Shown piece by piece: positions 15,191-45,501 of a stretch of DNA of 45,501 nucleotides. The first letter of the stretch is position 1. Each line of letters begins with the position of its first letter. Both the position numbers and the translations under genes were made by a program. The stretch covers positions 1 to 45,501 of the IMG/VR virus record IMGVR_UViG_3300044832_000092. One strand, written 5' to 3'. The stretch comes from a virus. The notes below the pieces were generated by a model. That model had not been told where the DNA came from. It saw nothing but the letters and a program-made list of their open reading frames with translations, and searched no databases.

Positions 15191-15478
15191 ATGGGGCAAT
15201 CAATGGGGGGCATCGGTAGTTCGTTGGGAGACATGTTCGCGAAGGGCGGCGCGGGCAATTCGGCCCTTCAGAGCGGCCTGCAGGGAGCCTCTAAGAGCGC
15301 GCAAAATCAGCCCATGCAGCGTCCGGGTGGGGCTCCGCAGATCAGCGCTCCGCAGGCTCCGATGGTTGATCCCTCCATGTTCCAGAGCGCGCAGGCTCCG
15401 CAGGGCGTGCAGTCACCCATGGGCAACGGCCCCATGTTCGGGCTACAGAAGCCTAAGAATCTGTTCTTCGGCCAATAA
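15191..15478 (+). CDS. Low-complexity small protein (95 aa)
   Basis: ATG 15191 with AGGAG upstream. Rich in Gly, Gln, Pro, Ser and Met (QAPMVDPSMFQSAQAPQGVQ), ending KNLFFGQ. No fold is evident. It lies between two other Gln/Ala-rich genes and is probably part of the same internal virion set. The 78-aa product of 19165-19401 has a similar make-up. Confidence 0.55.
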   Translation: MGQSMGGIGSSLGDMFAKGGAGNSALQSGLQGASKSAQNQPMQRPGGAPQISAPQAPMVDPSMFQSAQAPQGVQSPMGNGPMFGLQKPKNLFFGQ

Positions 15479-35262: not shown

Positions 35263-36357
35263 TCAACGGTCGGATTTCGGTCCAATTCTCTCCAGGGCAT
35301 CCACGGCTGCGCGCTTCACTTCAATTCGGGTGTGTGAGTAGCGCTTCTTCATGCGCTCGGAGATGTGGCCAGCGATGGCTTCGGCAGTTTGTTCGGAAAC
35401 GTCTGCATTTTCTAAGAGTTTGGTGATGGCGTGATGGCGGAATGAGTAGGCGGAAATGTGGAGGTTTGCGCAGACCAGCATTTCATTGAGCGCATATCTC
35501 CAGCCCATCGCAGGACGCTCCGGCTCGTAGGTGCCCTTCTTGAGCCGGAACGGAATCAGATAGTGGTGCGGCTCGATGCAGCCTAGTTTCTCGGCGCGCT
35601 GCCACAAATGCTCTATGGCCCGCCAGGCGCTCGAATTCAGCGGGATCACGCGGATGCGGTGCTCGTTCTTTGCGCCTTCCGGCTGGACGCGCATTGTGTG
35701 GCGCTCGAAGTCGACGTCCATGCGGCGCAAATGACGAATCTCTCCCGGCCCGCATGTCGTGTTGATGGAGATCACGAAGGCGCAGTAGGCAACTTCCCAT
35801 TGCGGATTCGCGGCGCCCACGCGATAGAGGCGATCTTCTTCAACTGGCGTCAGTGCGCGATGCGGGCTTTCCTTGGGCAGCGGCAACGGCTGGTACTGCG
35901 CCTTGATCTCCGGCCAGCGTCCGATGCGCTTCAGCATCTGCTGCAAGATCGAGCATTCCTTGTTGATGCAGGTTGCTCCGGCGCGAGCCATGCGCATGCG
36001 CTGGTAGGCTCTGATCTCGTCCGGACCGATGTCCGGCAGGCGCATCTCTGCGAAGAATCCGTTCAGGATGTGGATGTAGTTGCGGTAATCCTTGTGGCTT
36101 CGGACCGATAAATAGGGCTTGCGGTCGTCGAGCCAGGCCAGAGCGGCATACTGAAAAGACGCCTGAGAAAGGACTTGTGTCCGCACGAGATGTTCCTTGC
36201 GAACTATTTCGGATTTTGTAACAAGATCGGAAAAACTTGTTACTATTTCCGGACAAAGACTATGTACCCCCTCTGTCGGTTTGTAAAGTGAATAAGTTCC
36301 AGGGAGCGCGCGGGGGTGTTTGTCTTTCGGGGCCGGGGGCAATTTCGATTCTACCAA
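35263..36357 (-). CDS. int: Tyrosine integrase (364 aa)
   Basis: The frame starts at TTG 36357; later starts are possible, as the first 60 residues are not clearly part of a domain. A SAM-like core-binding domain (about 65-145, SFQYAALAWLDDRKPYLSV) precedes the catalytic domain. Tyr340 is the nucleophile (GHISERMKKRYSHTR), with Arg307-His308 in YSFRHHAITKL and a GH at 330-331. Two boxes are non-canonical: the usual first Arg (T-G-x-R-x-x-E) is Gly203 (TTCGPGEIRHL), and the His of HxxR is Tyr304. The neighbouring tRNA segment identifies it as the phage integrase. Confidence 0.88.
   Translation of the reverse strand: MVESKLPPAPKDKHPRALPGTYSLYKPTEGVHSLCPEIVTSFSDLVTKSEIVRKEHLVRTQVLSQASFQYAALAWLDDRKPYLSVRSHKDYRNYIHILNGFFAEMRLPDIGPDEIRAYQRMRMARAGATCINKECSILQQMLKRIGRWPEIKAQYQPLPLPKESPHRALTPVEEDRLYRVGAANPQWEVAYCAFVISINTTCGPGEIRHLRRMDVDFERHTMRVQPEGAKNEHRIRVIPLNSSAWRAIEHLWQRAEKLGCIEPHHYLIPFRLKKGTYEPERPAMGWRYALNEMLVCANLHISAYSFRHHAITKLLENADVSEQTAEAIAGHISERMKKRYSHTRIEVKRAAVDALERIGPKSDR
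36218..36243. promoter_or_regulatory. Inverted repeat in the 5' part of the integrase gene
   Basis: GTAACAAG (36218-36225) and CTTGTTAC (36236-36243) are perfect 8-bp arms, 10 bases apart. They are flanked by a near direct repeat, ACTATTTCGGA before and ACTATTTCCGGA after. This looks like a protein-binding site, perhaps a repressor operator or recombination arm site. If the integrase starts further downstream it would be upstream of the gene. Confidence 0.5.
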
Positions 36358-38286: not shown

Positions 38287-38817
38287 ATGGAGCACCTGTC
38301 AAAGCGGCAATTACTGGCGATTCTCGGGGCGGCCCGCAAGCACCGGGAGCGCGATTGGTTGATGATTCTGGTAGGCTTCGCACACGGTCTAAGGCCCAGT
38401 GAAGTCATTGCAATCAAAGCAGGTGACATCCAAGACGGGTTTCTTTCTGTCGCGCGGCTCAAGGGCTCTAATCGCACCATACAGCCGCTCGTTAGGGACG
38501 AGAATCCGCTATTGGATGAGGCTTGTGCGCTCGTTGATTACGCGACGAAAAGCGTCGCCAATCAACGTCTATTTCCTGTCACTCGGCGGACTCTGGGTCG
38601 TATCTGGGAACGACACGCGGCCACGGCTCATATCCCGCGACATCTCGCTCACCCCCATGTGGCGAAGCACAGTATTGCCATGCAAACCATAAAGTTAGCG
38701 GGGATCGAGAACGTGCGGCAGTACCTCGGCCACAAATCCATAGCGAGCACGGGCGCATATCTAAAAGTCTCTGACACGGATGCATCCGCAGCAATACACA
38801 AAGCTCGGCGCGGTTGA
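38287..38817 (+). CDS. Small tyrosine recombinase, catalytic domain only (176 aa)
   Basis: ATG 38287, six bases after the terminator and without a ribosome site. The protein is a bare catalytic domain: Arg36 (GLRPSEV), Lys59 (ARLKGSNR), His124 and His128 in HPHVAKHS, GH at 148-149 (YLGHKSIAST) and Tyr158 (GAYLKV). The second Arg of the HxxR box is Lys127. The N-terminal SAM-like domain is absent, as in FimB-type or other minimal recombinases. It lies directly before the terminase genes and overlaps the next gene (TTGA). Its substrate is unknown; it may resolve dimers or invert DNA. Confidence 0.82.
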   Translation: MEHLSKRQLLAILGAARKHRERDWLMILVGFAHGLRPSEVIAIKAGDIQDGFLSVARLKGSNRTIQPLVRDENPLLDEACALVDYATKSVANQRLFPVTRRTLGRIWERHAATAHIPRHLAHPHVAKHSIAMQTIKLAGIENVRQYLGHKSIASTGAYLKVSDTDASAAIHKARRG

Positions 38818-39158
38818 ATGCTTGTTTGGATCTCGTAAATCAAAACCCGAACCAAAAAGTGACCGGCAGGGGCGGCCCAGGACGCGGACAGGGCAGAAAG
38901 CCGAATCCGCTCAAAGACTTGCAGGCTGGAACCGCAACGGCCCTAAAGCTTCTCACCGAACTGAAGGCGGAGAAAGAGATCGTTGAGCTTTACCGTAATT
39001 GCGGGGATGCGCGGCTCAAGATATACATTCTGTTCCGTTTGCGGGAATGGGCTTACGGCAAAGCTCGAGAGACGATAGAAGAGAATGTCAACCTCACCCT
39101 CCCTGATCGACGCGATCGAGCAAAAGCAGCTCTCGCCATCGTTTCTCGATCGGCTTAA
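38814..39158 (+). CDS. terS: Putative small terminase subunit (114 aa)
   Basis: TTG 38814 overlaps the recombinase stop. The basic N-terminus (GRGGPGRGQGRKPNPLKDLQ) is like that of many small terminases and related DNA-binding proteins, and LKIYILFRLREWAYGKA resembles the terS helix pair. It lies directly before, and overlaps, the large terminase ATPase gene. The call rests on this position and general composition. Confidence 0.65.
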   Translation: MNACLDLVNQNPNQKVTGRGGPGRGQGRKPNPLKDLQAGTATALKLLTELKAEKEIVELYRNCGDARLKIYILFRLREWAYGKARETIEENVNLTLPDRRDRAKAALAIVSRSA

Positions 39159-39783
39159 TGATCGTGACTTTACAGTCCTCGAAACGCAGCTTTATGACGA
39201 ACTGGACGCGAAATGCGGCTCAAGCCCTCTCTACTGGGGCCAGAACTGGACCTTTACCGAGAATCCCAAGTGGAAAGAGCAGGGCTTAACATGGCGCGAG
39301 AAGTTCCCCACAAAGGGCTATTTCGTCCCGCTCTTCGAAGCCTTTCAGACCCACAAGCGGCTGTTCGTACCGAAAACCCGCGAAATGATGACGAGCTGGT
39401 GCGCTATGCTCTGGGCTACCCACCAGGCCCAATGGCACCAAGCAGAAGTGATCGTTCAGGCGGACGCGGAAGATAAGGCCGACGAACTCATCGGGTACGC
39501 CGGCTGTCTTTATCGCAATCAGGCGGAGTGGCTCTTGGAGCGGCACCCGCTGATCTCGACCGGGAACAGGGAATTGAAGTGGGCGAGCGGCGGAAGGGTT
39601 TTCGGCATACCGCACGGTGAGCACAAGATCAGGCTATTCCATCCAACGATTTACATCATGGACGAGGCTTCATTTCTCAGAGAGGCGCAACAGTGCTACG
39701 ACGCGGCCGAACCAGTTGCGGGCCAAATAGTTGCCGTCTCTTCGGCGGGACCTGGCTGGTTTGGAGATCAGGTCGCGCGCTGA
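39085..39783 (+). CDS. terL: Large terminase, ATPase domain only (232 aa)
   Basis: ATG 39085, overlapping the small terminase gene by 74 bases. The Walker A-like loop is PKTREMMTSW (96-105), Walker B is TIYIMDEAS (188-196, with Asp193-Glu194) and the coupling motif is SSAGPGWFG (219-227). In intact terminases the chain continues into a nuclease domain; here a stop codon follows eight residues after SSAGPG. The nuclease domain is encoded 3.4 kb downstream (43153). The two products probably assemble into one packaging motor. Confidence 0.85.
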   Translation: MSTSPSLIDAIEQKQLSPSFLDRLNDRDFTVLETQLYDELDAKCGSSPLYWGQNWTFTENPKWKEQGLTWREKFPTKGYFVPLFEAFQTHKRLFVPKTREMMTSWCAMLWATHQAQWHQAEVIVQADAEDKADELIGYAGCLYRNQAEWLLERHPLISTGNRELKWASGGRVFGIPHGEHKIRLFHPTIYIMDEASFLREAQQCYDAAEPVAGQIVAVSSAGPGWFGDQVAR

Positions 39784-40285
39784 ACATTTGGTTATTCCCA
39801 TCGGAATCCAGACCCTAACCCCGCCCCGGCCAAACGCCGAAGTGACTAGCCTAATGGTTGATCTTTTGGAATTGAAGCCGACTGACAAGTTGCTAGAAAT
39901 TGGCACCGGAACGGGATCGCAGACGGCTGTATGGCAGAAATTCGTCAAGGAAGTGCATTCGGTTGAACTGCATCCGGAGTACAAAGTCTATGAACCTTTG
40001 GGCGGCCACGTTTACCTGTCCTACGGAGACGGGGCGAAAGGCAAGCCCGAGGCAGCGCCCTATGACGCAATTGTGGCGACTTGCGGATGCCCGGAAATTC
40101 CGCCGGCTTGGGTTGATCAGTTGAAGGAAGGTGGAAGGCTGGTAGCACCTGTGGGTACGAATGCCATTCAGAAGTTGACGCTTTTCAGGAAGAAAAAAGG
40201 CTTTCTGGCCCCGGAGCGGATTGTGGCCTATCTTCGGTTTGTGATGCTCGAAAGAGAGGCAGATAAATGGCAAGCGGGAATCTAG
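39731..40285 (+). CDS. Protein-L-isoaspartate methyltransferase-like protein (174-184 aa)
   Basis: The longest start is TTG 39731; TTG 39761 is also possible. Either overlaps the ATPase gene. VIPIGIQTLTPPRPNAEVTS resembles the PCMT opening ('PIG.GQTISQP'). KLLEIGTGTGSQTAVWQKF is SAM motif I, and YDAIVATCGCPEIPPAWVDQ then LKEGGRLVAPVG match the second half of the domain. It is somewhat shorter than cellular PCMT. In a phage it could repair damaged aspartates or modify another protein. It is the first gene of the block separating the terminase halves. Confidence 0.75.
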   Translation: MPSLRRDLAGLEIRSRAEHLVIPIGIQTLTPPRPNAEVTSLMVDLLELKPTDKLLEIGTGTGSQTAVWQKFVKEVHSVELHPEYKVYEPLGGHVYLSYGDGAKGKPEAAPYDAIVATCGCPEIPPAWVDQLKEGGRLVAPVGTNAIQKLTLFRKKKGFLAPERIVAYLRFVMLEREADKWQAGI

Positions 40286-40286
40286 T

Positions 40287-40538
40287 TTGGTTCCAAACGC
40301 TAGGACTAGGGGAATTAAAATTCCCCCAATAAAACAATTAGGGGAATCCCAATTCCCCCTGTCAAGCTTTTGGCGCGTCGGGTCAAAAGTTCCGATAAAC
40401 GTTTACGAAGGAGATCGGCCCGTCTGTCAGTGCCAAACTGCGATGGATGCGAAGCGCATCGTAGAGGCGGTAAATGCGTCCTGGGCTAGCATAGATCTGC
40501 GGCGTAAAGCATGGGCGGAAAAAGCGGAAAAGGAGTAA
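40287..40538 (+). CDS. Small hypothetical protein (up to 83 aa)
   Basis: The frame opens at TTG 40287 directly after the previous stop, but its first 25 codons run through two palindromes and read unnaturally, so the real start may be later, at about FWRVGSKVP. The body (INVYEGDRPVCQCQTAMDAK, RIVEAVNASW) is a small protein type seen in other phages. Function unknown. Confidence 0.5.
   Translation: MVPNARTRGIKIPPIKQLGESQFPLSSFWRVGSKVPINVYEGDRPVCQCQTAMDAKRIVEAVNASWASIDLRRKAWAEKAEKE
40309..40358. repeat. Two palindromes, GGGGAATT/AATTCCCC
   Basis: GGGGAATT-AA-AATTCCCC at 40309-40326 is a perfect 8-bp palindrome. A second copy, GGGGAAT-CCC-AATTCCCC, lies at 40341-40358. Both are preceded by TA or TTA. 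Tandem copies 32 bases apart suggest a binding site for a dimeric protein, a replication iteron, or a mobile palindromic element. Confidence 0.7.
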
Positions 40539-40542
40539 CCAC

Positions 40543-40758
40543 ATGGCAACCAACAATCTCTACGATGTAGTGTATGAGTACGGAAACAAGGTGATGAAGC
40601 GAGATCTGGTCTTGGCCGCGTCAGGCGACGAGAACGCGATCAAGGCGGTTCTTTCCACCAATCAAGCCACCAACACCAATGGCCGCGAATCTGTCTCGGG
40701 CGGTATTAAGATTATCGCCATACGAAATGCGTCGATCCCCAACGGAGTTCTCAGCTAA
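40543..40758 (+). CDS. Small hypothetical protein (71 aa)
   Basis: ATG 40543 preceded by AAGGAG. Begins TNNLYDVVYEYGNKVMKRDL; the second half (INGR..SGGIKIIAIRNASI style) is beta-like. No recognised family. It lies in the block between terminase halves. Confidence 0.6.
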   Translation: MATNNLYDVVYEYGNKVMKRDLVLAASGDENAIKAVLSTNQATNTNGRESVSGGIKIIAIRNASIPNGVLS

Positions 40759-40770
40759 AGGAGCTAATTT

Positions 40771-41157
40771 ATGACCGATCCAGTTCCCGCAGTTCAGCCC
40801 GAAGTTCCTCCACAACCTCAGCCCATGCAGCCAGCACCCGCGAAGGTCGTCGCGCCCGCCAAGCCCACCGGCAAGGTCTACCGCGTGTCCTATCACTACG
40901 CCGATAACTCGGTTGACCGGCGAAAAGCGGCGGACCAGAAATACCTCGGCCCACAGCGGCGGGTACACTATACTTTCGGCTCGGCGACGTCCGAGGAATT
41001 GCGGCAGAACGTCTTTGCGCTCGATCCGGCGAAAGGCGCGCTTTCCGTATCGCCCGACTTCCTGGCTATCATGACCGAGAACGGCTACGACAAGAGGCGG
41101 CCGGGCAAGATGGTTATTGACGGAATCGTGGAAGTTGTCGGTAGCGTCATAGCTTAA
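40771..41157 (+). CDS. Hypothetical protein with Pro-rich N-terminus (128 aa)
   Basis: ATG 40771 with AAAGGAG upstream. The first 33 residues are a Pro/Gln/Ala linker (PEVPPQPQPMQPAPAKVV), followed by a small basic alpha/beta domain (KVYRVSYHYADNSVDRRKAA, ..DFLAIMTENGYDKRRPGKM). Pro-rich linkers of this type recur in the virion proteins of this genome, so it may be a structural protein. Confidence 0.6.
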   Translation: MTDPVPAVQPEVPPQPQPMQPAPAKVVAPAKPTGKVYRVSYHYADNSVDRRKAADQKYLGPQRRVHYTFGSATSEELRQNVFALDPAKGALSVSPDFLAIMTENGYDKRRPGKMVIDGIVEVVGSVIA

Positions 41158-41167
41158 TGACCGCTTA

Positions 41168-41530
41168 ATGGCGATTGACCATACATGCGAAGCCGACATT
41201 CCGGTCGATACGGCCGGGGTGACCCAGAACACGAACGGAGTGTCTGGCGGCTTCATGAACTCGGCCGGATTGCACATCAATGCCGACGGGACGCTGGCCA
41301 CGAACACGGTCAAGAATGGCGCGGCGTTCATCAACTCGCGGGGCTGGCTGATTAATCCGGATGGCAGTCTGGTCGTCAGTGTAACCAAGCTCGGCGGGGC
41401 GGCGATCGGCCAATGTGGGGTGCTGACGAATCCGGACGGAACCGTGGTCAATGCCACGTCGGGCGGAGTCTTCATCAACTCTCAGGGCTTGCTCGTCAAG
41501 GGTGATGGCACGCTCGTTACGCTTGCATGA
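41168..41530 (+). CDS. Tandem-repeat protein (120 aa)
   Basis: ATG 41168. From residue 33 the sequence consists of about four degenerate repeats of some 25 residues: 'G-L-H/L-I-N-x-D-G-T/S-L ... G-A-x-F-I-N-S' (GLHINADGTLATNTVKNGAA, GWLINPDGSLVVSVTKLG, GVLTNPDGTVVNATSGG, GLLVKGDGTLVTLA). The NPDG turns spaced by beta strands suggest a short beta-solenoid. No family is recognised. It ends in an ATGA overlap with the next gene. Confidence 0.65.
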   Translation: MAIDHTCEADIPVDTAGVTQNTNGVSGGFMNSAGLHINADGTLATNTVKNGAAFINSRGWLINPDGSLVVSVTKLGGAAIGQCGVLTNPDGTVVNATSGGVFINSQGLLVKGDGTLVTLA

Positions 41531-42105
41531 CCACGATTTACCACGTCGAGCACGGTGACACGAAGTACGACACCGAGGGCAAGGCGCAAGGCCTGCTCAA
41601 TGACGGCCTGGTCGAGAAGGGCAAGCGGGACGCTCGGCAAGCTGGCAGGGCATTGAAGGGCAAGGGGATAGATTGCGTGTACTGCTCTCCCTTGACCCGA
41701 ACAAAGCAAACCGCCCAGATCATTGCCGACATGCTGGGAGCAAAGGTGATTCCGCGCGCAGGCCTGACGCCTTTGGACATCGGGCGATTGCAGGGAAAGA
41801 AGAATTCCGTGGTAGGCAAGTACCTCGAATTCTTTTCGAAGCGTCCGACTTTACCCTTTCCCGAGGGCGAGTCCTTTGGGGAAATGTATGCACGCCTGCG
41901 GAAAGAATGGATTCACCAGTTCCAAGACGACGACCCCGTGATTGCGGTCGTATCCCATTCGCGAGATCACCAACTCTTGAAGCACTGGCAGCGCAACGGG
42001 CTGGATGCCGGACCGGAAGGCGTGAATTTCGACGAGCCCAGCTCCGGGCAAGTCTCGAAGGTTACCAAGTCAGGGAATTCCATCGCAGTGAGGAAAATCG
42101 CATGA
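41527..42105 (+). CDS. Histidine-phosphatase-fold protein with altered RHG motif (192 aa)
   Basis: ATG 41527. The fold is that of the phosphoglycerate mutase/histidine phosphatase group: YCSPLTRTKQTAQIIADML (the conserved Arg), PLDIGRLQGKK, FPEGESFGEMYAR and VVSHSRDHQLL (second His). The first catalytic motif should read RHG but reads VEHGDT, so the nucleophile His9 is kept and the phosphate-binding Arg is replaced by Glu8. It may be inactive or act on another substrate. An unusual gene for a phage. Confidence 0.8.
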   Translation: MTTIYHVEHGDTKYDTEGKAQGLLNDGLVEKGKRDARQAGRALKGKGIDCVYCSPLTRTKQTAQIIADMLGAKVIPRAGLTPLDIGRLQGKKNSVVGKYLEFFSKRPTLPFPEGESFGEMYARLRKEWIHQFQDDDPVIAVVSHSRDHQLLKHWQRNGLDAGPEGVNFDEPSSGQVSKVTKSGNSIAVRKIA

Positions 42106-42269
42106 CGCCACGTCTATGGATTCTGACGGTAGAGGCAGTCTTGGCAATACTGACGATTAACTTAGGGCTAGGCTTTGGCTACCGGCCCGCTATCTATGTA
42201 GGTTTGGGAGTGTTCATTGCGGCCCTAATCCCAATTATTCGCATCGGCTGGTTCAAAGGTAAAGCCTGA
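42102..42269 (+). CDS. Two-helix membrane protein, paralogue B (55 aa)
   Basis: ATG 42102 overlaps the previous stop. Two membrane segments (LTVEAVLAILTINLGLGFGY and IYVGLGVFIAALIPII) and a RIGWFKGKA end. It is the paralogue of the 54-aa product of 8496-8660; the two share the first 15 bases and the MTPRLW and RIGW ends. The copies lie in separate parts of the late operon. Confidence 0.7.
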   Translation: MTPRLWILTVEAVLAILTINLGLGFGYRPAIYVGLGVFIAALIPIIRIGWFKGKA

Positions 42270-42282
42270 AGGAGAAAATCGC

Positions 42283-42843
42283 ATGAAGGGCAGAAATCCA
42301 CTCAAAGGCCGTCACTTCGCAGGCTCGAATCCCGCGCCCGGTTCTCCGGTTAAACCGCCATCGCGCACCGGCAGCGCCTCCGGTAACTTCGTCGGCGGCG
42401 GGACCAACCGAAAGACTGCCCAGAAGCCGGAATACACACGCCGGAAGCCCGCCCCGGCGACGAACTACACCTCGCAGGCCGAGCAGTTCACCCGATCCGC
42501 GCCTGAGCCCTTCCGCAATCCCCAGCCGAGCGCCAATCCGAAAGTCCAGGCGCCCTACGAAACTGGGTCGTCGAAGCCCTACCCAACCTTTGCCGGGACG
42601 CGCGTCTCGATCAATGACGGGGTAAATCCGTCGAAAGCTCCATCGCCCAGCCGGTCGAAGTCTGTCTCGGGCGGCTATCCGGGAGCGAATATCGCGGCAG
42701 TCGGAATTTCGGGCTCGAAGGGTCGCGGCTCGGAGAATGGCAAAGTGGCAGGCCGTGCCCAGCCAAGGAAGTCAGGCAATCCTTTTACGCAGGGGAGATT
42801 CACTCAGGCGAAGTCTACTAGTCCGATGTTTTACGGGAGATAA
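42283..42843 (+). CDS. Disordered basic protein (186 aa)
   Basis: ATG 42283 with AAGGAG upstream. Rich in Ser, Pro, Gly, Lys, Arg and Asn without a hydrophobic core (PSRTGSASGNFVGGGTNRK), ending SPMFYGR. The 105-aa product of the next gene has the same character and ends PSFYGK, with a shared 'YPGxNxxAVGxS' segment, so they are probably related. They may bind DNA or virion surfaces. Confidence 0.6.
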   Translation: MKGRNPLKGRHFAGSNPAPGSPVKPPSRTGSASGNFVGGGTNRKTAQKPEYTRRKPAPATNYTSQAEQFTRSAPEPFRNPQPSANPKVQAPYETGSSKPYPTFAGTRVSINDGVNPSKAPSPSRSKSVSGGYPGANIAAVGISGSKGRGSENGKVAGRAQPRKSGNPFTQGRFTQAKSTSPMFYGR

Positions 42844-42845
42844 CT

Positions 42846-43163
42846 ATGGCATTCCGAAATACCAACGTCGGGCGGAAATTTCAGGGTACGCCGCTCGCCA
42901 AAAACACCCACAAGCCGTCCAGTCTAGGCTCAACGGCAATGGAGCAGAGCCCGGACTCTGGCGGAAATCGCTTCAACCCCGTTCAGAAGCCACAGGCCAA
43001 CCTGCAGAACATGAACATACCCGTGACCGGTGGCCAGCCTCCCGCAGCCTATCCGGGCATGAATACGGGAGCCGTGGGAAACTCCAGCTTGGGCAATATC
43101 GGGGCAGGCAGGGTCTCAAAGAAGAAAGTAGCGGTCGCCAAGCCTTCGTTCTATGGCAAGTGA
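42846..43163 (+). CDS. Disordered basic protein (105 aa)
   Basis: ATG 42846, two bases after the previous stop. Low-complexity Asn/Gly/Pro/Lys-rich (NPVQKPQANLQNMNIPVTGG), ending KKKVAVAKPSFYGK. It is related to the preceding gene by its 'YPGMNTGAVGNSS' segment and C-terminus. It overlaps the terminase nuclease gene by 11 bases, so that gene is translated in coupling with it. Confidence 0.6.
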   Translation: MAFRNTNVGRKFQGTPLAKNTHKPSSLGSTAMEQSPDSGGNRFNPVQKPQANLQNMNIPVTGGQPPAAYPGMNTGAVGNSSLGNIGAGRVSKKKVAVAKPSFYGK

Positions 43164-44139
43164 ATTTCCCGGCATAAACGAATGGACGAACCCCAACGGG
43201 ATCCACATCTTCCGCCTGCACTACTCCGCAGACGAAGAGAAAGGCCAAGGGGAGAAGGTTTTCGTACCAGAAGAAAATGCCTGGCTCAGTCCGTGGGCAA
43301 AGGCTCAATATGACGGATTCACCAATAAGCGAAGCTTTTTTCAAGAAATCGAGATCGACTTCTCTGCCAAATCGGGCGCTCTCATTTATCAGTTGGATGA
43401 CGCCGCGACTTTGGAACCGCTATCTGCTCTGCCTGGCGATGGTACCGATTATTATTTTCTCGACCCGCACCCTCGCGTTCCTCATGCTCATCTCTGGATT
43501 CGGGTTGATCGCTGGGGGGATGCTTGGGCATTTCGCGAACTCTGGCCCAGTAAAATCTGTGGCAAGCCCGGAGATTCGCCCGAAGATGACAACAGATACA
43601 GAATCCGAGACTACGTCGAAACCGTGAAGTGGATGGAGTCGAAGGACAATCCCAAAAACCACGGCAAAGACCTGACCATCTTCAAGCGCGTGATTGACTA
43701 CTCCGCCCGAGGCTTTGTGGCCGACGAAGAAAAGCACATCTCAGTCCAGCAGCGCTATCAAGACGTGGCGAACGAGATCGGGCACTACATGACGTTTGAC
43801 GACGCCATCAAAGACATTGACGCAGGCATTGAAGCAGTGAACGAATGGCTGAAGCCGCGCTTTGTCGAAATGCCGGATGGATCGTTCAAGGGCAAATCTA
43901 AGCTGCACATCATCAAGGAAGAGTGCGTCGAGCTGATCTGGGAATTGCGGAATAATCGCTTCGAGAATCTGACGCCGGTCATGCTGGAGAAATCTGACCC
44001 GTCCGGGCAGCCGCGAAAGAAGCGCAATCATATGACCGATCTTCTGAAATACGCCTGCCTGTGCGGGTTACAGTACGTTACTCCGCCGCGCAAGAGCCTG
44101 AATCCGTGGAAGCCGCTACACCCCGGAATCGCCTACTAA
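43153..44139 (+). CDS. terL: Large terminase, nuclease domain only (328 aa)
   Basis: ATG 43153. The N-terminus (IHIFRLHYSADEEKGQGE) is the strand that normally follows the ATPase linker. FFQEIEIDFSAKSGALIYQ is the usual entry to the RNase H-like nuclease, Asp104 in YYFLDPHPR is the first metal ligand, and NHMTDLLKYA near residue 300 holds the last. There are no Walker motifs. It supplies the headful-cutting nuclease to the ATPase encoded at 39085. The stop is followed after one base by the TTG start of the portal gene. Confidence 0.85.
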   Translation: MASEFPGINEWTNPNGIHIFRLHYSADEEKGQGEKVFVPEENAWLSPWAKAQYDGFTNKRSFFQEIEIDFSAKSGALIYQLDDAATLEPLSALPGDGTDYYFLDPHPRVPHAHLWIRVDRWGDAWAFRELWPSKICGKPGDSPEDDNRYRIRDYVETVKWMESKDNPKNHGKDLTIFKRVIDYSARGFVADEEKHISVQQRYQDVANEIGHYMTFDDAIKDIDAGIEAVNEWLKPRFVEMPDGSFKGKSKLHIIKEECVELIWELRNNRFENLTPVMLEKSDPSGQPRKKRNHMTDLLKYACLCGLQYVTPPRKSLNPWKPLHPGIAY

Positions 44140-44140
44140 C

Positions 44141-45501
44141 TTGCCCGGCCAATTCCAAGCACATCCTAGCGCAGCCGAACTCTCCGACATTCTAGACCGG
44201 AGAAATGAGGCGCGCCGCTGGATGCAAATCAACTACTGGGACGAGTGGGAGGAAGTGTACCGCTCTTCGAAATGCCTCACCAAGAAGATCATGGTCACGG
44301 CGCGCGACGGCTCCCAAGTAGAAGACACGACGCGGACCAACGTCTGCATGCCCGAAACTTCCCTGATTCGCCGCAGAAAGACAGCGAGACTCACCGCCAA
44401 CATGCCCGAGATCCGCTACTTCTCCGGATCGGGCAATACGGAAGTCGAGCAGAAATTGACCGCGTGGGCCTTCCAGCAATTTGACCGCTCGGGAGAAAAT
44501 CAGCAGCACCGAAAACTCGTCAGCTCAGGCGTAACCTTCGGCTTCGCGGTAGGCAAGTTATTCTGGGACACCATCGAAATTGAGCGGAAATTCCAACGAC
44601 AGACGCAGACCCAGCAGGAAGTCATGCAGTACGGCTCGATCATGCCTGACCCAAAGACGGTCAAGAAGTACGAAGGGCCAGTCTCGAAAAATCTCTTCAT
44701 CGGCGATTTCTTCATGGAGCCGGGCTGCGCGTCGGTCAATGAATCGAGCTTCTGTGTCGAAAATTACTGGGAGACGGATCTGTGGCTGAAGAAGATGCTC
44801 AAGAAGGTCTATATCGATCCGGAATCAGGCGAAGAAAAGCCGGTCTTCGACCCGAAGGCTTGCTCTGATCTCTACGAGATGGGGACGTGGAATCCGAACT
44901 TCGGCACGCAGCAGCCCTACGATTTGCGCACGCGCTTCAGAACGTCAGTCCTCGGCCAGCAGGTGCCGCTATTCCCGACCAAACTGATTCCGGGCAAGCG
45001 CTTCGATATCCTGGAGCACCACGCGCGCGACGAATCGGGCAAGATGTGGATTACCTGGCTGGGGAATGAGAAGCAGATTTTGGGCGCAATGCCTTATCCT
45101 TGGGATCTCTATGGCAAATATCTATACACGGAATTTGTACCGTTATTTGACGAGCTTTCGGCGTACGGGGATTCGACCCCCCGCTTACTACGCTTTCTAC
45201 AGGCACTGCACAACGCCACCGTCGGTGCGCGTAAGGATTTGGTGGCAAATATACTGCGTCCGATCGTTCTTCGGCAGGTGGGCGAAGATATACCGGATGA
45301 GCTCACCGACCGGAAACTCTTCAAAGAAGTAGTCGTCAAAAATCTCAACTCCTTCAAGCTCCTGATCGAGAACATGTCGCCGATCTCGGCGGCCATCTCC
45401 GCATCATCCGAAGAAGAAGGCCAGATCATGCGCATGATGGCCCTGGCCGAGCCCAATTTGACCAACGTCGAATCAGGCACAGAATCGAATCCGCAAGCTG
45501 G
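44141..45501 (+). CDS. Portal protein, N-terminal part (continues at base 1)
   Basis: The frame opens at TTG 44141, one base after the terminase stop, and is open to the right end, joining base 1 in the same frame after removal of the repeat. The start is followed by PGQFQAHPSAAELSDILDRR, then ARRWMQINYWDEWEEVYRSS. Portal-like features are the long helical N-terminus and the wing segments (YDLRTRFRTSVLGQQVPLFP). Full length is about 687 residues, in the range of larger podovirus portals. See the 1-830 entry. Confidence 0.78.
   Translation, partial: MPGQFQAHPSAAELSDILDRRNEARRWMQINYWDEWEEVYRSSKCLTKKIMVTARDGSQVEDTTRTNVCMPETSLIRRRKTARLTANMPEIRYFSGSGNTEVEQKLTAWAFQQFDRSGENQQHRKLVSSGVTFGFAVGKLFWDTIEIERKFQRQTQTQQEVMQYGSIMPDPKTVKKYEGPVSKNLFIGDFFMEPGCASVNESSFCVENYWETDLWLKKMLKKVYIDPESGEEKPVFDPKACSDLYEMGTWNPNFGTQQPYDLRTRFRTSVLGQQVPLFPTKLIPGKRFDILEHHARDESGKMWITWLGNEKQILGAMPYPWDLYGKYLYTEFVPLFDELSAYGDSTPRLLRFLQALHNATVGARKDLVANILRPIVLRQVGEDIPDELTDRKLFKEVVVKNLNSFKLLIENMSPISAAISASSEEEGQIMRMMALAEPNLTNVESGTESNPQA
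45375..45501. repeat. 127-bp terminal direct repeat, right copy
   Basis: Identical to bases 1-127. It lies inside the portal gene, showing that the contig closes on itself. Confidence 0.95.

Follow-up and report, generated by a model that had tools for sequence, protein, structure and literature searches.

The large terminase (TerL) of the phage represented by IMG/VR virus record IMGVR_UViG_3300044832_000092 is made as two polypeptides, which are encoded by separate open reading frames (ORFs) for an ATPase (39085-39783) and a nuclease (43153-44139) on the same strand, 3.37 kb apart. The window analysed here is the whole record of 45,501 bases, and its genome is complete, as judged by a 127-bp direct repeat common to both ends, which is typical of circular assemblies. 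No second TerL was found in this genome with the TerL profiles of this analysis and phrog_2, and the two ORFs constitute the sole large terminase of the phage. A first-pass annotation made from the sequence alone had described a motif-bearing ATPase ORF that stops eight residues after SSAGPG, a nuclease ORF of its own from 43153, and nine genes between them; all of this is borne out, and nine same-strand ORFs of the window's ORF listing fit between the halves. We consider it quite probable that the two chains, an ASCE core and a lid-linker-nuclease, would associate and thereby reassemble as the usual packaging motor.

Identity of the two terminase chains

Chain 1 (39085-39783, +) comprises 232 residues with the C-terminal end SSAGPGWFGDQVAR, eight residues past SSAGPG, and carries a deviant Walker A motif (K97-x-R99...S104-W105), a Walker B motif (IMDE, with D193 and E194) and motif III (SSAG, with S219). 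Its identity is settled by structure: the AlphaFold2 model, with a mean predicted local distance difference test score (pLDDT) of 82.6 and a predicted template modelling score of 0.83, matches T4 gp17 best (Z 18.7), residues 32-232 of the model corresponding to gp17 101-303, and Foldseek matched 19 PDB chains at E<1e-3, every one a TerL or packaging ATPase. Model, Foldseek matches and conserved residues together describe a TerL-type ASCE P-loop core with Walker A, Walker B and motif III but without the C-terminal lid. Among the PHROGs, chain 1 shows a weak match to phrog_7579 (E 0.004).

Chain 2 (43153-44139, +) comprises 328 residues, starts with MASEFPGINEWTNPNGIHIFRLHYSADEEK and contains the acidic residues D104, D182 and D296. 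Each of the top 25 re-aligned matches of its AlphaFold2 model is a TerL nuclease domain or an entire TerL, among them those of P22 (the best, Z 8.6), D6E, SPP1, G20c and T4 as well as pUL15 of herpes simplex virus 1 (HSV-1), and these TerL-only structural matches agree with the conserved aspartate triad. Chain 2 is accordingly read as lid and linker (approximately residues 1-70) followed by an RNase H-like nuclease with a conserved acidic triad, the fold being taken from a low-confidence model.

The two genes share a strand within the packaging and head region, with the nuclease gene beside the portal gene, as is usual for terL. The portal (head-tail adaptor) gene (44141-45501, +; phrog_332, E 1e-4) begins 2 bases after chain 2 and crosses the circular junction, being stopped by the record end and resuming at the record start, as indicated by relative L002. 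In 32 of 33 close relatives a portal-like match likewise lies 3' of the nuclease, mostly within 200 bp. The nuclease ATG itself overlaps the preceding gene (42846-43163) by 11 bp.

Pfam gave a match for neither half, direct tblastn with either half as the query gave none among 50,697 phage records, and the same holds for a sequence search of both halves against PDB chains. The Pfam result is a warning that automatic annotation will overlook or misname terL in these phages. Judging by family description only, some of the short PHROGs families termed "terminase large subunit", namely phrog_7579 (239 residues), phrog_5653 (199 residues) and phrog_10250 (228 residues), may be split TerLs in sequenced phages.

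Position of the break

The first-pass annotation had placed the cut in the linker between the ATPase and nuclease domains, and this placement does not hold. The last residue of the chain 1 model aligns to T4 gp17 303, D6E 185-186, P74-26 192 and HK97 204, and the model covers D6E 9-185. In D6E the ASCE core is followed by the lid and then by a 12-residue linker at 230-241 (PMC5727402), so that chain 1 stops before the lid. The nuclease fold, in turn, starts at about residue 70 of chain 2, equivalent to T4 361 and D6E 233, and residues 1-70 of chain 2 are therefore assigned to lid and linker. According to the models, then, the break separates the ASCE core from the lid (transmission) subdomain, lid and linker being carried by the nuclease chain.

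That almost no terminase sequence is missing, as had been claimed, is supported by the number of residues between motif III and the first nuclease aspartate: it is 117 in the window, compared with medians of 111 in split relatives and 117 in fused ones, and this similarity indicates that no sequence has been lost. A lid between core and nuclease is thus present by length and alignment, albeit on the nuclease chain and with a lid fold that has no confident model. The usual, though not strictly defining, presence of ATPase and nuclease on one polypeptide does not apply here.

The split form among relatives

Relatives were collected first with the single halves as queries, later with alignments, plus genome contigs. 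All close relatives holding both halves carry them as separate ORFs on one strand, ATPase before nuclease, with the break at the same site. The enlarged set comprised 204 split and 26 fused TerLs (loci, not distinct contigs); once near-copies had been removed and nine fused TerLs of phage records included, the set stood at 99 split and 24 fused ones. A two-gene TerL of the same order and break is hence found in at least 99 non-redundant environmental contigs from many metagenomes, which answers in the affirmative whether relatives share the split. In the 99 split contigs the halves overlap by up to 17 bp or stand as far as 5,576 bp apart, with 22 overlapping pairs (12 of these by ATGA) and 34 pairs at least 1 kb apart. 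The nuclease ORFs start with ATG in 71 rows, GTG in 15 and TTG in 10, and no start was recognised in 3.

The motifs are kept in both halves, as the first-pass annotation had held for the window, and their catalytic residues are near-invariant across the split rows: K97, R99 and E194 of the ATPase in 99/99 and D193 in 98/99; D104 of the nuclease in 99/99, D182 in 97/99 and D296 in 87/97. Pairwise ratios of nonsynonymous to synonymous substitution rates (dN/dS), where estimable, lie at 0.04-0.15 in the ATPase gene and at 0.03-0.23 in the nuclease gene, with a value of 0 in one near-identical pair; as far as these sequence comparisons go, both halves are under purifying selection. Moreover, terminal repeats are present in three split genomes, the window, G401 and G403. 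The split TerL looks real, old and widespread among environmental phages. Of the working two-subunit motor that had been proposed, the real and retained two-gene TerL is upheld by recurrence in 99 contigs, residue conservation, dN/dS and the lack of a second terL, while the working motor is what we infer from it.

The claim that split motors are rare applies to one part of the phages only. Among cultured phages with detectable similarity, every annotated case inspected has a one-gene TerL, whereas the split is the norm for environmental contigs of the lineage. The fused TerLs of Pelagibacter phage Hodr, Pseudomonas phage Rollin, Burkholderia phage BcepC6B and Pasteurella phage Pmp11 show detectable homology to distant split members but are single genes of approximately 475-515 codons. 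In a tree rooted on four cultured one-gene TerLs, most of the environmental superclade is split and fused members branch from within it, and a single clade of all split rows was rejected (approximately unbiased test, p-AU 7e-5; 38 rows, simple model). Since split and fused forms interleave, fission or fusion has recurred. On these sequences, one early fission with later re-fusions would be the simplest history, though fission may also have taken place repeatedly at one site. The fused TerLs L159, L168 and L199 are nested in split clades, and their contig names suggest isolate genomes, a possible route to cultured relatives.

In the window's own clade of the tree, all 25 rows are split (24 close relatives and L046). 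The gap between the halves in close relatives is 1.2-5.6 kb and never small, whereas the two genes often overlap in distant clades; for this reason, the intervening genes appear to have been inserted after the split.

A proposed two-chain motor and its alternatives

How the TerL core turns ATP hydrolysis into DNA movement is still under debate; the models invoke a movement of the lid, which comes next after motif III in the chain. In the two-chain motor that we favour, chains 1 and 2 would associate non-covalently on the portal, with the lid of chain 2 packing onto the core of chain 1 as in an intact TerL. ATP hydrolysis would still move the lid although motif III and lid are not joined by a backbone, the two chains would act as the usual ring motor at the portal, and the nuclease would cut at initiation and termination. 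If the chains pair through lid on core in this manner, it follows that the covalent core-lid link is not essential. Several observations weigh against this interpretation. The chain 2 model is poor (pLDDT 48.8), because only 7 sequences were submitted for it, and the nuclease fold rests on re-aligned weak matches. In addition, the nuclease ORFs of L002 (8339-9349), L015 and L054 have no ATG, GTG or TTG before the conserved start region, which suggests a rare start codon in these sequences. Finally, the isolated P22 nuclease was reported to have reduced or no activity without the ATPase domain (PMC7617512), so that a separated nuclease would need association, which is itself the presumed step.

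The main alternative, which we regard as improbable, is that the ASCE core alone translocates DNA in a phi29-like manner, while the lid-nuclease is a cutting factor in its own right, recruited just for initiation and termination. Motors of the phi29 type, which lack an active nuclease, lend it some credit, and genes kilobases apart would allow different expression levels. Moreover, ATP hydrolysis by D6E is about 50-fold faster with the isolated ATPase domain than with the full-length protein (PMC5727402). On the contrary, the lid, the mover of DNA in current models, sits on the nuclease chain, and both chains keep order and strand together across the split contigs. Rejoining at the RNA level by an intron or trans-splicing has much less in its favour and is very unlikely: the arrangement resembles herpesvirus UL15, the exons of which surround a 3.5-kb intron holding UL16 and UL17 (PMC3079670), and the few relatives without a standard nuclease start codon would fit, yet no Rfam intron or other RNA family was found in 88 kb of five loci and no credible RNA family in 39600-43400 even at relaxed E-value. 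The interval thus shows no match to a described group I or II intron family; it is packed with ORFs, spacing elsewhere goes down to ATGA overlaps, and 96 of the 99 nuclease ORFs have ATG, GTG or TTG starts.

Protein-level rejoining by a split intein, as in a fractured gene, hardly comes into consideration. Some relatives do carry inteins within their nuclease gene. In split rows, however, just 12-33 residues (median 16) separate motif III from the end of chain 1, and conserved TerL sequence stands at the very start of chain 2, which leaves no room for intein halves, and neither an N- nor a C-part of an intein was found at the break. Both intron and split intein were rejected on these grounds. 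It is equally implausible that the window shows a misassembly or a terL in decay after an insertion. One metagenomic contig might, by itself, be chimeric, but the same break recurs in the 99 non-redundant contigs from many metagenomes and in the three genomes with terminal repeats, while low dN/dS and the retained catalytic residues speak against decay; misassembly and pseudogene were rejected by this recurrence, selection and retention.

Apart from its division, the window TerL resembles those of tailed phages (T4 gp17, D6E, P74-26 and P22 type) in ATPase fold and motifs, in the RNase H nuclease with its aspartate triad, in the gene position before the portal and in the total length from motif III to the first aspartate; it differs in being made as two polypeptides, broken between core and lid, with nine genes between. 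The terminase of herpesviruses (UL15/UL89) shares with it a coding sequence interrupted by other genes over approximately 3.5 kb (PMC3079670), but is rejoined by mRNA splicing, whereas the window has two ORFs with starts of their own and no intron was found. Split-intein fractured genes and intein-bearing TerLs such as that of cyanophage Mic1 (PMC7156551) illustrate that TerL is a known target of gene-breaking elements, yet the break in the window has clean ends and no intein sequence. The open-licence literature searched yielded no account of a TerL divided into one gene for the core and one for the lid-nuclease, and an earlier description elsewhere is possible. A natural lineage in which the chain is cut exactly between core and lid makes it possible to test directly if a covalent link between them is required, and its split TerLs provide motor and nuclease parts that can be tuned independently.

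Genes between the two halves

Directly after chain 1 lies a gene for a protein-L-isoaspartate methyltransferase-like (PCMT-like) protein (39731-40285, +; PF01135, E 1e-31; start codon uncertain), and such a gene follows the ATPase gene in 23 of 33 close relatives. According to the ORF listing, it is succeeded on the same strand by two small ORFs (40287-40538 and 40543-40758) and two ORFs without a Pfam match (40771-41157 and 41168-41530), the latter of which has repeat-like NPDGT motifs. A histidine-phosphatase-like gene (41527-42105, +; PF00300, E 2e-27) has counterparts between the halves in 10 relatives and is overlapped via ATGA by an ORF for a hydrophobic protein of 55 residues (42102-42269, +). 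The last two genes encode low-complexity proteins with C-terminal tags: a Pro/Ser/Gly-rich one ending in FYGR (42283-42843, +) and one ending in FYGK (42846-43163, +), which overlaps the nuclease start.

These inserted genes are not random, in that the PCMT-like gene recurs and proteins with an F[YF]G tag concentrate between the halves. An ORF counted as tagged if its product was a small protein, basic or of low complexity, with F[YF]G followed by 0-3 residues at the C-terminus. In the 24 close contigs 58 such ORFs were observed against 2.4 expected, in comparison to none against 2.6 expected in other split contigs. Of the same-strand tagged ORFs in the close contigs, 51/54 lie between the halves, a region that makes up 24% of bases. 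In the window and six long relatives, 13/22 same-strand tagged ORFs fall into the interval between the halves, which accounts for 7.6% of the sequence; each of these seven has at least one further tagged ORF outside. The tagged proteins belong to different families; one matches DUF6496 and another weakly DUF3008. The tag, written F[YF]G(E/K/Q/G), occurs approximately 20-50x above chance and in the window's clade only, with examples at 42283-42843, 42846-43163 and 15191-15478 of the window, L003:8201-8653, L014:8190-8372 and L026:8209-8454. It is possibly a virion- or motor-targeting peptide. A more far-reaching proposal, that the whole lineage runs its motor with separate core and lid-nuclease chains, motif III driving the lid without a backbone link, and that F[YF]G proteins are recruited to motor or prohead for packaging or capsid loading, is speculative and rather unlikely as a whole.

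Neighbouring genes and further observations

The ORF 5' of chain 1 (38814-39158, +; ORF listing) overlaps it by 74 bp. Its position suggests a small terminase, but it has no significant family match in Pfam or PHROGs and no counterpart in the relatives. Two tyrosine-integrase-like genes are present in the window (35263-36357, -, and 38287-38817, +), the short second one just 5' of the packaging genes.

The lineage consists of soil phages, and its assignment to Acidobacteriota hosts is weak: one contig (L103) stems from an Acidobacteriota metagenome-assembled genome, and 2 of 396 Acidobacteriota genomes match at E<1e-3, the second weakly and over short stretches of a 455-residue frame.

Inteins tend to favour conserved genes, and several, some with HNH endonucleases, reside in the separate nuclease gene of distant relatives (L222:4630-6669, L226:2922-4940, L133:886-2724, L269:4056-5858 and L212:2584-3987).
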